Virus record (IMG/VR): IMGVR_UViG_3300033142_002138
Span: 1-36,145 of that record
Source: a virus
DNA length: 36,145 bases
Direction: 5' to 3' (one strand)
Part shown: positions 32,160 through 36,145 of the stretch, piece after piece
How the letters are laid out: every line of letters starts with the position of its first letter
Position numbering within the stretch: the first letter of the stretch is position 1
Position numbers and translations under genes: made by a program
Notes under the pieces: model-generated
Database searches by the model: none
The model's input: the letters and a program-made list of their open reading frames with translations, nothing else
What the model was told of the DNA's origin: nothing

Positions 32160-33044
32160 TTGAGCAGCTTTCATCTGGCCGGCATCATACCGGTGGCAGG
32201 ACAGCCATTAGATTTCAAAATGGACTGGCACGACGCGATGATGCCGATAGCCCCGAACTACCTCGCGGTTGAGCGAGCGGTGTATGAGTGTACTTGGGCT
32301 GGATGTGAAACCATCTGGATTGTCTGTAACGATGACATGAAGCCGTTGATAAGACATCGACTTGGAGAGTGGGTTCAAGATCCTGTTTGGATTGGAAGAG
32401 GGCTCGATCCCTATCCATCACAGACGAGAAAACAAATCCCAATCTTTTACGTTCCGGTTCATGCAAAGGACGTGGGCAAACGAGACTGTTTATCTTGGAG
32501 CATCATTTGGGGAGCAACCACTGCTTTCAGAGTCTCGATCAAGCTGAGCAAGTGGATCGTTCCCAAAAGATATTATGTGGCATTCCCTTACGGGGTTTAT
32601 GATCCGGAGATTCTGAGATCACATAGAAAAGATATTTCAAGTGAGAGACCATTTATGTTGAGCCACGACGGGAAGACCGTTAAGAACAATGAGTATCTTG
32701 GATTTACATTTGGCCGCGATGACTTTGTTGCTTGTCGTAGAAAGCTCCGCGAGGGCACCGGACAGTATAATTCTGAGGTTATGGAGGACGGAATATATCC
32801 CAGGGAGAAACTGCCAAAAGAAGAAAGATATTCTGCACGACATTTTTTACTTGACAAAATCTTTGAACCTGTTATAATAGATATAGAAAGCAAAGTTGAA
32901 GTCCCATGGTATTACAACATAGATTCTTGGGATGGATACTGCGACTACTTGGGATCAGAAGAGCGAAAGCTAATTGAAAGACCTCACCCAATATTTATGA
33001 AGTATCACGAATGGAATGAAATAGGAGTTGATGATGAAGAATAG
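32160..33044 (+). CDS. Nucleotidyltransferase-like protein (GT-A-type fold), tentative
   Basis: 294 residues, TTG start with GATGAGGA upstream. The N-terminus (LAGIIPVAGQPLDF, MPIAPNYLAVERAVYECTWAGCETIWIVC) follows the sugar-nucleotidyltransferase plan: a glycine-rich start, a helix naming the base pocket, then 'a.vv..d'. The usual G-x-G-T-R loop is not seen; VAGQPLDF stands in its place, so catalysis is uncertain. The ending ...GVDDEE overlaps the start of the next gene. A sugar-phosphate or base-modification role cannot be read from the sequence. Confidence 0.5.
   Translation: MSSFHLAGIIPVAGQPLDFKMDWHDAMMPIAPNYLAVERAVYECTWAGCETIWIVCNDDMKPLIRHRLGEWVQDPVWIGRGLDPYPSQTRKQIPIFYVPVHAKDVGKRDCLSWSIIWGATTAFRVSIKLSKWIVPKRYYVAFPYGVYDPEILRSHRKDISSERPFMLSHDGKTVKNNEYLGFTFGRDDFVACRRKLREGTGQYNSEVMEDGIYPREKLPKEERYSARHFLLDKIFEPVIIDIESKVEVPWYYNIDSWDGYCDYLGSEERKLIERPHPIFMKYHEWNEIGVDDEE
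32851..32878 (+). promoter_or_regulatory. Sigma70-type promoter upstream of the restriction-modification genes
   Basis: TTGACA (32851-32856), 16-base spacer, TATAAT (32873-32878) with TGT before it (extended -10). It lies inside the nucleotidyltransferase-like gene, ~155 bases before the restriction endonuclease start. Confidence 0.7.
33023..33038 (+). repeat. Direct repeat copy 1 (16 bases) at the restriction endonuclease start
   Basis: AGGAGTTGATGATGAA, exactly repeated at 34481-34496. It carries ribosome site plus start codons and also encodes the last residues (GVDDE) of the upstream protein. Together the two copies flank the restriction-modification pair. Confidence 0.85.
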
Positions 33045-33720
33045 CAATGCAAACCAAGATACATTGGGAGGCGTCAGCGATGCTTGCAATAATTTGGTCG
33101 GAAGTACATTGGGTATCTCTCGGGATGATCGTCTGGGCGATGACGGTGCCTTCGGCCGCAGTTTGGAAAAAGCTTTGGGAGTTGAAGAAAATAATCGAGC
33201 CGGCGCCGATATAGTATTAAAAGATGGAAATATTGAACTCAAAACAACAAACGGAAAGTCTAAAATGACCTTGTTCTCCAAGGAGCCCATATGGATGAAA
33301 CAATGGTTCTCGGGCAGCCGTGACTTTTTCAAGAGATTTTCTAAGTGCGGAATAAGGTTAAACACTTCAATCAAAAGTGGTCCGAACAACTTGGGTCTTT
33401 ATTTACAAATTTTAGAAAATCGCCTCATTATCATGCACAATGATCGTGAATGTGGTTACTGGGAATTAGATGCCCTTCTTGAGCATGCTGGAAGGAAGTT
33501 GGATAGAGTATTTTCTCTTGAACACGAGAAAGGCAAAATTAAAAAGTTTCATAAATATAGCGGAATGTCTTGTGATAATTTTGTTCGACTTGTTAAATCT
33601 GGGGATTTAGTAGTTGAAATTAGGATCTCCAAAGGGGGAAAAAAGAACAGGGGGACAGCCTTTAGAATTAATCCAAGAAAAGTCGAAAAGCTTTACGAAA
33701 AAACCAGCGGAGTTCAATAA
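33034..33720 (+). CDS. Type II restriction endonuclease, MvaI/BcnI family
   Basis: 228 residues from the ATG at 33034 (AGGAG six bases upstream; TTG 33028 and ATG 33031 also possible). The N-terminal part GDDGAFGRSLEKALGVEENN, then AGADIVLKDGNIELKTTNGKSKMTLFSKEP, is the MvaI/BcnI layout: 'tG.g.tLE.llGi..N', Asp, 'iELK', 'TLFt'. Likely catalytic residues are Glu45, Asp59, Glu68 and Lys70 (numbered from this ATG), matching the E...D...E-x-K centre reported for MvaI. Length is similar to MvaI (249) and BcnI (238). These enzymes act as monomers at CCWGG or CCSGG. A methyltransferase starts inside its stop (TAATG). All key residues are present, so it may be active. Confidence 0.78.
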   Translation: MKNSNANQDTLGGVSDACNNLVGSTLGISRDDRLGDDGAFGRSLEKALGVEENNRAGADIVLKDGNIELKTTNGKSKMTLFSKEPIWMKQWFSGSRDFFKRFSKCGIRLNTSIKSGPNNLGLYLQILENRLIIMHNDRECGYWELDALLEHAGRKLDRVFSLEHEKGKIKKFHKYSGMSCDNFVRLVKSGDLVVEIRISKGGKKNRGTAFRINPRKVEKLYEKTSGVQ

Positions 33721-34502
33721 TGGATTTTGAAACAAGGGAATTTAAAAATGGAATTATGATCTTAGGAAATTGTCTGGAGGTTCTACCCACACTAGAAAAA
33801 GGATCTGTAGAAGTGGTCGTCACCTCTCCCCCCTATAACCTTTGCAAAAGATATTCTAATTATAAAAACTCAAAAACATCGAAAAGTATGACCGAAAAGT
33901 ATGAAAAATGGTATGATGATGACCTGCCAGAATGGTCCTATCAGGGCCAGCAGCAAGCTGTTATTTTTGAGTTGATGAGGGTAAGTCGTAGTTCTATTTT
34001 TTATAACCATAAGATTAGATTTGCTTGGCACAATCGCAATATTTATCGCACCAATAATAACTTGCATCATCCGATGCACTGGCTAGATAAGTTCCCAATT
34101 TGGTGCGAAATAATCTGGGATCGATGCGGTATTGGTAATCCATCCAACAGGTATCATATCCAAGAGGAGAGGATCTATCAGATTAAAAAGCCCAAGAAGT
34201 GGGACAACAAAGAGCACAAGTTAACAAATATTTGGAAAATCCCACCCAGCAGAAATAAAGGTCATGTGTGCACTTTTCCAGAAAAATTAGTTGAAAATTG
34301 TATTTTTCCCACGACAGAAGCCGGTGATGTAATATTGGACCCCTATATAGGTTCTGGCACCACCGCGATTGTTGCCATAAAGAATTCGAGACGATTTATT
34401 GGAATCGAATCCAATAGGGAGTACTTCGAATTAGCATGCTCAAGAATACAGAAGTTAGAAGATGAATTAGAATCAGAAACAGGAGTTGATGATGAAAGAT
34501 AA
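33720..34502 (+). CDS. DNA methyltransferase (N4-cytosine/N6-adenine, beta class), partner of the endonuclease
   Basis: 260 residues, ATG overlapping the endonuclease stop. Motif IV TSPPYNL (35-41) comes before motif I DPYIGSGTT (207-215) and FIGIE (226-230), the beta-class order. N4-cytosine or N6-adenine methylation are both compatible; MvaI/BcnI-type endonucleases are usually paired with N4-cytosine enzymes. The middle contains a distinct region (YRTNNNLHHPMHWLDKFPIW, CEIIWDR) for target recognition. It overlaps a 16-base repeat at its 3' end. It would protect phage DNA from the neighbouring nuclease; the target must be tested. Confidence 0.88.
   Translation: MDFETREFKNGIMILGNCLEVLPTLEKGSVEVVVTSPPYNLCKRYSNYKNSKTSKSMTEKYEKWYDDDLPEWSYQGQQQAVIFELMRVSRSSIFYNHKIRFAWHNRNIYRTNNNLHHPMHWLDKFPIWCEIIWDRCGIGNPSNRYHIQEERIYQIKKPKKWDNKEHKLTNIWKIPPSRNKGHVCTFPEKLVENCIFPTTEAGDVILDPYIGSGTTAIVAIKNSRRFIGIESNREYFELACSRIQKLEDELESETGVDDER
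34481..34496 (+). repeat. Direct repeat copy 2 (16 bases) after the methyltransferase
   Basis: AGGAGTTGATGATGAA, identical to 33023-33038. It encodes the end of the methyltransferase (GVDDE) and the ribosome site/start of the next small gene. Confidence 0.85.
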
Positions 34503-34728
34503 CCGGCCGAAGACCTACAAAGGAAGGCAGGTAGAATACCGAGGCGAGATCTCCGATAGAGAATCTTTCGAGGGCAAAGAAGAAGGAATCTATTATTTGA
34601 TTTCCACTGGGTCTGGCTATTGTTATTATGATGGCGTTGGATCGCTTGATTTGCGGTTCATACCCAACCCACATAATCCAGAGGTGTCGGCTATGAAGCC
34701 CTGTTGGTATAGTGAGATGAGAGAGTGA
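34492..34728 (+). CDS. Small protein of unknown function (78 residues)
   Basis: ATG at 34492 with AGGAG six bases upstream, overlapping the methyltransferase end. It has a beta-rich core (GIYYLISTGSGYCYYDGVGSL). Acidic and basic residues are mixed; no membrane segment or motif is recognised. Sits in the cluster of small overlapping genes between the methylases. Confidence 0.55.
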   Translation: MKDNRPKTYKGRQVEYRGEISDRESFEGKEEGIYYLISTGSGYCYYDGVGSLDLRFIPNPHNPEVSAMKPCWYSEMRE

Positions 34729-34920: not shown

Positions 34921-35138
34921 TTGAAAAGCCGCAAGAGGGAGACTTCGTATCAATCTCCTCCGAAAGAGTAAGGTTTGGAGACATCATGCAGGGCATAATT
35001 TTAAAAGTTATGGATGTCCCTGGCGCCCCTTATGGAAAGATGTACGAGGTTTTTACTTGCGGAACTATTGTAGTTTACGTTCAGGGTTTTTGGAAATTTA
35101 AAATATTAAGTAGAGCAAATGAAGAAGTTAATAAATAG
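34905..35138 (+). CDS. Small protein of unknown function with SH3-like strand pattern
   Basis: 77 residues, ATG overlapping the membrane protein gene by 16 bases. The core EGDFVSISSERVRFGDIMQG, then IILKVMDVPGAPYGKMYEVF, and a last GFWKFKILSR segment suggest a small beta barrel. Its last codons overlap the start of the methylase gene by 20 bases. No function known to me. Confidence 0.55.
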   Translation: MEKEVIEKPQEGDFVSISSERVRFGDIMQGIILKVMDVPGAPYGKMYEVFTCGTIVVYVQGFWKFKILSRANEEVNK

Positions 35139-35847
35139 TGTTGTTTGTGGCGATGCCATTCAAGTAATGAAAACAATTCCAGATGGTTCAGTGGATATGA
35201 TCCTGTGTGATCTTCCTTATGGAACCACCAAGTGTAGGTGGGATACTCCACTCCCGCTAGATGAGCTATGGGAACAGTATCTGAGAATAACAAAGGTGAA
35301 TGCAGCGATCGTTCTGACAGCTTCGCAGCCATTTACGAGCGTCCTTATCTGCTCAAACTTAAAGGACTACCGGTACAATTGGGTGTGGGAGAAGTCGAAG
35401 GCGTCGGGTTATTTGAACGCAAAGAGAATGCCACTAAAAGCACACGAAGAAGTTTGTATCTTTTACAAGAAGCCACCTACTTATAATCCTCAGTTCTGGG
35501 AGAGCACGCCTTACAACAAGGGTGAGGCTCACAGACCCACCGAGGTTTATGGAAAACAAAAATCTGTGTTAGTAAAAAGTGACGGACAACGCTATCCTCG
35601 ATCAGTTCAGTATTTCAAAACTGCTGAGAGCGAAGGTAAAACGCGCCACGCGACACAGAAGCCGCTATCTCTTTTTGAGTATTTGATCCAGACTTATACA
35701 AACCCAGGGGAATTGGTCCTCGATAACTGTGTTGGTAGCGGAACAACTGCGGTGGCTGCAAAAAGATTAAAAAGAAGTTATATTGGTATTGACATTGACC
35801 CAGAATATGTTATAATAAGTAAAGAAAGGTTGGAGAACACACAATGA
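35119..35847 (+). CDS. DNA methyltransferase (N6-adenine type), apparently orphan
   Basis: 242 residues. Motif IV DLPYGTT (31-37) precedes motif I, seen as LVLDNCVGSGTTAVAAK (~200-215), and GIDIDPEYV. The DLPYG form of motif IV with the CVGSGTT motif I is common in phage and prophage N6-adenine methyltransferases of the beta/DAM-like type. It differs from the other methylase (TSPPYNL), so the two are not recent duplicates. No nuclease adjoins it, so it may protect the phage against host restriction. Confidence 0.85.
   Translation: MKKLINSVVCGDAIQVMKTIPDGSVDMILCDLPYGTTKCRWDTPLPLDELWEQYLRITKVNAAIVLTASQPFTSVLICSNLKDYRYNWVWEKSKASGYLNAKRMPLKAHEEVCIFYKKPPTYNPQFWESTPYNKGEAHRPTEVYGKQKSVLVKSDGQRYPRSVQYFKTAESEGKTRHATQKPLSLFEYLIQTYTNPGELVLDNCVGSGTTAVAAKRLKRSYIGIDIDPEYVIISKERLENTQ
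35789..35816 (+). promoter_or_regulatory. Sigma70-type promoter for the DNA polymerase III gene
   Basis: TTGACA (35789-35794), 16-base spacer, TATAAT (35811-35816) with TGT before it. The 13 bases from GAATATGTTATAAT onward are nearly those of the promoter at 19674. 27 bases before the start of the next gene. Confidence 0.75.
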
Positions 35848-36145
35848 AAAAGATCCCATTTGTTGGATTACACGCGCATTCCGTAGCCGGAAGCATTTTT
35901 GATGCCCTTGGGTATCCACAAGAACACATGGACTTTGCCTTTAATAATGGTATGGACGCGCTAGCGTTGACTGACCATGGCAACATGAACGGCTTGCCAT
36001 ATCAGGTGCTTCACGCAAAGAAGATGAAGGAAGAGGGAAGAGATTTTAAGCCCATCTTTGGTATTGAAGCTTACTTCTTGCCCAGTCTCGATGATTGGCG
36101 TGATGACTATGAAGCAGCCAAAGAAGATAAGAAGAAACGCAAGAC
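35844..36145 (+). CDS. dnaE: DNA polymerase III alpha subunit, N-terminal PHP domain (3' partial)
   Basis: ATG overlaps the methylase stop (ATGA). The first ~100 residues show the PHP start: GLHAHSVAGSIFDAL (His10, His12), then GMDALALTDHGNMNGL (Asp44, His45), and later PIFGIEAYFL, exactly the order in bacterial alpha subunits. The frame is open to the right edge, so most of the protein lies outside. A family C polymerase in a phage that also has a short PolA is uncommon among T4-like viruses, which normally use family B gp43. A PHP-domain nuclease alone would be an alternative only if the rest is missing. Confidence 0.85.
   Translation, partial: MKKIPFVGLHAHSVAGSIFDALGYPQEHMDFAFNNGMDALALTDHGNMNGLPYQVLHAKKMKEEGRDFKPIFGIEAYFLPSLDDWRDDYEAAKEDKKKRK

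Follow-up and report, generated by a model that had tools for sequence, protein, structure and literature searches.

The locus and its surroundings

The DNA considered here is a 36,145-base virus record from IMG/VR (IMGVR_UViG_3300033142_002138), which we refer to in its entirety as “the window”. Its carrier is a marine phage. Profile searches identified genes for a contractile tail sheath, a major head protein, a UvsX-like recombinase, and a DnaB-like helicase, and a DNA polymerase III alpha-type gene lies at the right end. No tyrosine integrase was found in the contigs of the phage’s relatives, which fits a non-integrating phage without proving it. We refer to the position between a conserved core gene (the “upstream gene”, or NT) and the polymerase gene as the “slot”. 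The features in and around the slot are as follows:

32160 to 33044, + strand: upstream core gene (NT), nucleotidyltransferase-like according to the first-pass annotation; the reading frame ends in EIGVDDEE and a stop codon
32851 to 32878, + strand: predicted perfect sigma-70-type promoter-like site facing the slot (TTGACA-16-TATAAT, with TG before the -10)
33023 to 33038, + strand: 5′ copy of the junction, AGGAGTTGATGATGAA, holding the final codons of the upstream gene along with the ribosome site and start of the nuclease gene
33034 to 33720, + strand: MvaI/BcnI-family restriction endonuclease, 228 aa (PF15515, E = 2.3e-17)
33720 to 34502, + strand: beta-class DNA methyltransferase, 260 aa, ending in ETGVDDER and a stop codon (PF01555, N6_N4_Mtase, E = 2.6e-27)
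34481 to 34496, + strand: 3′ copy of the junction, AGGAGTTGATGATGAA, holding the final codons of the methylase along with the ribosome site and start of the following gene
34492 to 34728, + strand: small accessory gene downstream of the methylase, 78 aa from this start (the “80-aa gene”)
35119 to 35847, + strand: second, unpaired DNA methylase (PF01555, phrog_67)
35789 to 35816, + strand: second perfect promoter-like site (promoter scan), inside the end of the second methylase and facing the polymerase gene
35844 to 36145, + strand: start of the DNA polymerase III alpha-type gene (PHP domain; PF02811, phrog_405), the downstream wall of the slot

The upstream gene has no match in Pfam, PHROG, or NCBIfam, and none in a protein search of annotated phage records; its relatives occur at >100 IMG/VR loci. 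In most relatives that show both genes, the polymerase gene follows the upstream gene, either directly or past a variable slot. Relatives keep the same end to the upstream gene, (E/P)IGVDDE, whether or not a cassette occupies the slot, and within this end lie a ribosome site and an out-of-frame start codon. The 80-aa gene has relatives in unrelated places in other phages. At two related loci, L005 (8322–8390) and L007 (7477–7540), it carries an extra start segment that is absent from the window (34492); in L007, this segment comprises 51 bases, MSKLDEAYIEKFQKGRR. The 3′ repeat of the window may owe some of its exactness to the loss of this segment. Further downstream, L005 lacks the second methylase: a deletion immediately ahead of the polymerase gene, between AATAAATA and AATAAGTA, has also removed the internal promoter-like site at 35789.

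A restriction-modification pair in a phage

The endonuclease scores 64.2 bits against PF15515, above the curated cut-off of 25, and its matches in the PDB are R.BcnI (2e-8) and R.MvaI (2e-7). When an AlphaFold model built on six phage homologue sequences (pLDDT 76) was used for a fold search, nothing in the PDB matched at E ≤ 0.001 except four MvaI chains (9e-11 to 3e-9), with TM scores of 0.50–0.66; as modeled, the nuclease has an MvaI-like fold. The active-site residues that the first-pass annotation had numbered E45, D59, and E68-x-K70 are invariant in the six phage sequences and line up with the corresponding residues of BcnI. The nuclease gene of L005 differs from that of the window by four synonymous differences and one that changes an amino acid. 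A search of annotated phage records with the endonuclease returned a single 29% match, in an unannotated single-cell marine virus; in a genome collection, the one match was partial (50 residues) and lay in an Abditibacterium MAG. In L166 (4620–6145), a locus that also has a relative of the upstream gene, a more distant MvaI-like nuclease lies beside a different methylase.

In the translated methylase, TSPPYN precedes DPYIGSGTT, i.e., the beta order, which agrees with the class first assigned to this gene. The nearest PDB entries are N4-cytosine methylases (8s9n, a cytosine-N4 methyltransferase, 1.4e-25), and the product is probably N4-methylated cytosine. The two genes overlap by a single base, as previously described: base 33720 is common to the nuclease stop codon (TAA) and the methylase ATG. 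Nuclease and methylase are adjacent in the window, L005/L006, L067, L068, L069, and L076/L161, while in L163 the methylase beside the nuclease is cut by the end of the locus. The pairing is conserved and recurs in several other phage surroundings: before a UVDE-like gene in L067 and L068, and after a recA-like gene in L069 and L076/L161 (in L069 and L076, also before a purA-like gene). Family profiles, predicted fold, and invariant residues all support the claim that the phage carries a complete MvaI-type pair. By analogy with the family, the methylase would shield phage DNA, and the nuclease would cut unmodified DNA of the host or of competitors. Restriction-modification (R-M) systems are reported to be nearly absent from phages, with 9 systems in 831 genomes (PMC4176335), consistent with the rarity noted in the first-pass annotation.

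The pair resembles R.MvaI (CCWGG) and R.BcnI (CCSGG) in Pfam family, predicted fold, catalytic residues, and the presence of a methylase of the expected N4-cytosine type. It differs from them in that it is phage-borne, the nuclease is only about a quarter identical (21–24% in structural alignments), the nuclease gene comes first with the methylase coupled to it, and site depletion suggests CCNGG as the target. Of 48 palindromes with the pattern NN[W/S/N]NN, the one most depleted in the two R-M carriers is CCNGG; these carriers are related and therefore amount to one observation. The observed/expected ratio is 0.64 in the window (z = −3.3) and 0.51 in the other carrier, G006 (z = −4.5), versus 1.04 and 0.91 in empty genomes. 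In aligned homologous DNA, there are 19 sites in the window versus 45 in G003, and 13 in G006 versus 41 in G003. Close relatives that lack the R-M pair are also low in CCNGG, with 20 sites in the window versus 25 in G005, and 12 versus 12 in the comparison with G002. The cassette itself contains no CCNGG. The depletion is a hint, compatible with a CCNGG enzyme, with a common host enzyme, or with both. Other palindromes are depleted elsewhere: CTSAG is the most depleted in the contigs of L009, L012, L010, and L080, and TGNCA is the most depleted in the contig of L056 (z = −6.6).

The promoter-like site at 32851–32878 lies inside the upstream gene, ~150 bases before the nuclease. It scores 12/12 in all 15 of 15 near relatives, and 11–12 of 12 in 40 of 83 distant relatives, as compared to 4 of 162 distant control segments. 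The contents of the slot would be transcribed from this site, with the nuclease leading and the methylase coupled behind it. The layout of the cassette reveals no delay of the nuclease; an undelayed nuclease would be well suited to DNA that is already methylated on entry into the cell.

The junction repeat

The first-pass annotation described the R-M pair as a cassette bounded by an exact 16-base repeat. The repeat is indeed present at both ends of the unit (33023–33038 and 34481–34496), and each copy is the coding end (GVDDE) of one gene and the ribosome site and start of the next. With flanking bases included, GAAA[T/C]AGGAGTTGATGATGAA, the two copies are identical at 20/21 positions; no further copy of AGGAGTTGATGATGAA within two mismatches was found in the 36-kb window. 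The length of 16 bases is not decisive on its own because AGGAGTTGATGATGAA is one of four exact 16-base repeats in the window. It had also been proposed that removing the unit would fuse the flanking genes and leave both of their ends unbroken. In-silico removal of 33039–34496 (1,458 bases, in frame) does leave both ends intact, with the upstream gene ending in GVDDER and a stop codon and the next gene starting MKDNRP; what it restores, however, is a gene overlap and not a protein fusion.

A survey of exact repeat pairs of ≥14 bases at 110 loci yielded 191 pairs. Of these, 36 have both copies at gene starts, invariably in the same register, versus 0.24 expected and none in five controls in which the gene-start windows were shifted by 100–300 bases; many of the 36 come from few arrays (11 loci) and are not independent events. 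Placement at gene starts in one register is thus not a matter of chance.

The 5′ copy is an old gene junction, since the upstream-gene end is conserved and overlaps the polymerase gene directly in L012 and L087, where the slot is empty. Judged by sequence comparison, the 5′ copy is ancestral and the second copy derived; the latter gives the methylase a GVDDE tail that is missing from its homologues outside the slot. Hence, the cassette is bounded by the repeat as first described, but the repeat did not come in as an element specific to the cassette: it is the junction of the upstream gene, present in relatives without a cassette, and was then duplicated. L005, which has the same R-M pair as the window, has a degenerate 3′ copy with three differences (AGGAGTTAATAATGAG), meaning that exactness of the repeat is not required now.

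The slot in related phages

In addition to the empty state of L012 and L087, there is a precise empty site for another cassette. When the flanks of L010 are joined with one copy of the junction, they align to L009 with 362/406 identical positions and no gap. The first-pass annotation had anticipated a relative in which the unit is precisely absent and one repeat copy is left; this was seen for the L010 cassette, a sister in the same slot, and an empty site of the window’s own unit (the upstream gene followed directly by the 80-aa gene) was not found among the relatives, including by way of the 80-aa gene.

Several relatives have other cassettes in the slot. L010 and L080 encode a 190-aa protein with a PD-(D/E)XK-like motif (D-x9-E-x-K), L007 encodes a distant relative of this protein, and L014 has an HNH-like gene and a methylase. 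All four cassettes start at the junction and end in a junction copy, whose identity to the junction is 16/21 in L007, 20/21 in L010, 20/21 in L014, and 21/21 in L080, with other slots reaching ≤14/21. Every cassette with a junction copy (window, L005, L007, L010, L014, and L080) leads with a nuclease or nuclease-like gene; in L007, L010, and L080, this gene is alone, with no methylase directly beside it. L010 and L080 have the same cassette followed by different genes, and the switch occurs at the junction. We conclude that the position between the upstream gene and the polymerase gene is an exchangeable slot for DNA-cutting enzymes.

The nuclease-like family comprises L010 6875–7450, L080 7875–8444, and L007 6875–7501, with WLPDA..IELKTG in L010 and L080. 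No Pfam or PADLOC match was found for the three proteins, nor any match to the L010 protein in annotated phage records. They are PD-(D/E)XK candidates by motif. A structure prediction for the L010 protein was discarded (pLDDT 43).

A different R-M pair occupies the same slot in L054/L055 (L054 6906–8190; in L054, PDDEXK_11 plus a D12 methylase). This pair has its own ribosome site and no junction copy, which means that another route of insertion exists. The same slot in L070 (2887–5849) has a nuclease-like gene, an Eco57I-type methylase, and a relative of the window methylase. Separately, arrays of small genes in L060, L110, L061, L062, L063, and L016 are joined by another standard junction, GGAGARCGAAGAATGA, with up to five copies per locus and with protein tails ENEE or ESEE before the stop codon.

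A similar pattern is seen at a second site, the start of a UVDE-like gene (the names UVDE-like and HNH at this site were assigned by eye from the sequences). In L068, an R-M pair of the window type lies between two copies of the promoter-leader of the UVDE-like gene, with 43 identical bases. In L227 (4200–5010), an HNH-like gene lies inside the start of the UVDE-like gene, and the promoter, the leader, and the first 10 codons are duplicated. The two loci share the same neighbors at 97–99% identity, the HNH-like gene of L227 replacing the R-M pair. Other loci (L210–L212 etc.) have the same promoter-leader before the UVDE-like gene and no such R-M pair beside it. Since the UVDE-like site shows the same pattern, nuclease insertion accompanied by a duplicated gene start extends beyond a single place.

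Possible mechanisms

Duplication of the junction, empty sites, and cassette swapping can all be read from the locus sequences. The probable explanation, in our view, is that a complete type II R-M pair entered the overlap between a conserved phage gene and the next gene, duplicating the overlap, and that the slot has been reused. The duplicated overlap would comprise tail codons, ribosome site, and start codon, with the upstream gene finishing and the nuclease beginning in the first copy, and the methylase finishing and the following gene beginning in the second. The R-M genes would be read from the promoter inside the upstream gene, nuclease first, with the methylase coupled. Reuse of the slot would account for the relatives’ other nuclease cassettes being bounded by a copy of the same junction. 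Movement would most likely proceed by homologous recombination through the flanks and the junction sequence, the phage encoding a UvsX-type recombinase, and might be stimulated by the nuclease cutting cassette-less genomes. The tract shared by the window and L005 (~99% identity) extends from about 31885 to about 34400, i.e., it begins far upstream of the repeat, and the upstream gene of L007 is nearly identical to that of the window except for its divergent last ~100 bases. For these reasons, recombination over longer flanks is no less likely than recombination at the 16 bases themselves.

Could the repeat be something other than a trace of this insertion? Overlapping starts with strong ribosome sites resemble one another, and translation favors the core AGGAG-N6-ATG, so that such a repeat might arise without common origin. 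We regard such convergence as highly improbable, and reject it together with chance, because other slots reach ≤14/21 and the shifted controls yield no pairs; moreover, the identities of 20/21 and 21/21 include coding positions upstream of the ribosome site. Selection alone is harder to set aside, though we consider it doubtful. Here, any illegitimate insertion would be tolerated only with a duplicated overlap, both neighbors needing it, and the repeat would be a survivor’s mark with no part in movement. Such a view would accommodate the junction repeats of other sequence (GGAGARCGAAGAATGA) between small non-nuclease genes in these phages, the variation of the 3′ copy in L005 and L007, and the absence of a repeat in L054/L055, which have their own ribosome site. 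It does not readily explain why the neighbors of the L010/L080 cassette change exactly at the junction, or why the duplication at the UVDE site (promoter plus 10 codons) exceeds what a ribosome needs.

The third alternative adds a driving force to the explanation that we favor: the nuclease would cut co-infecting genomes that lack the cassette, and repair would copy the cassette into the same slot, with R-M and solo nuclease genes behaving like free-standing homing genes. That all cassettes with a junction copy lead with a nuclease or nuclease-like gene, as do L068 and L227 at the UVDE site, would be expected of such spread, as would the single nuclease-like gene without an adjoining methylase in L007, L010, and L080; there are also CCNGG sites near the junction in empty genomes. 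Nonetheless, we think this unlikely: a 5-base specificity would cut the whole genome and not the junction, and the PD-(D/E)XK assignment in L010, L080, and L007 is by motif, with no family match and a poor model (pLDDT 43). In a broader reading, to which we likewise assign a low probability, restriction enzymes, with or without a methylase, would be homing-like elements in these phages, and one junction would be a common docking point for unrelated nucleases. Nucleases would then repeatedly enter the starts of replication and repair genes, seize the promoter and start codon, and regenerate the target with a duplicated start or overlap.

Relationship to known systems and significance

In T4-like phages, free-standing homing endonuclease genes, including HNH types, are found between core genes. 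The window unit is similar in that nuclease genes are inserted between core phage genes, but it differs in that its nuclease is of the restriction type and comes with a protecting methylase. In T4-type phages, PeSL promoter-stem-loop cassettes (Arbiol 2010; Comeau 2014; both as summarized in PMC4503421) also tie short repeated regulatory junctions to the shuffling of accessory genes between core genes. As far as that summary describes them, they differ from the window repeat, which consists of a coding end, ribosome site, and start and not of a promoter-terminator; the repeat at the UVDE site does contain a promoter. In bacterial chromosomes, R-M genes have been found inserted with long, variable target duplications (Nobusato 2000; Furuta 2010; both as outlined in PMC3031569). 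As outlined there, the shared features are an R-M complex with direct target duplication, empty sites in relatives (here those of L012 and L087 and the one matching the L010 cassette), and no transposase. The differences from that outline are that the present case is in a phage, that the target consists of ~20 bases of gene junction in the NT slot and of a promoter-leader-start in the UVDE slot, and that different, unrelated nucleases reuse the same target. A search of the open literature, outside which most subscription papers lie, turned up no phage example of R-M genes inserted with target duplication, and none at a gene overlap.

In this lineage, restriction or nuclease genes have repeatedly filled a fixed place before the DNA polymerase gene, and empty sites, swaps, and a common junction can still be seen. 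The movement of R-M genes without a transposase, a long-standing question, thereby becomes directly testable in phages, and the slot points to a source of undescribed nucleases.
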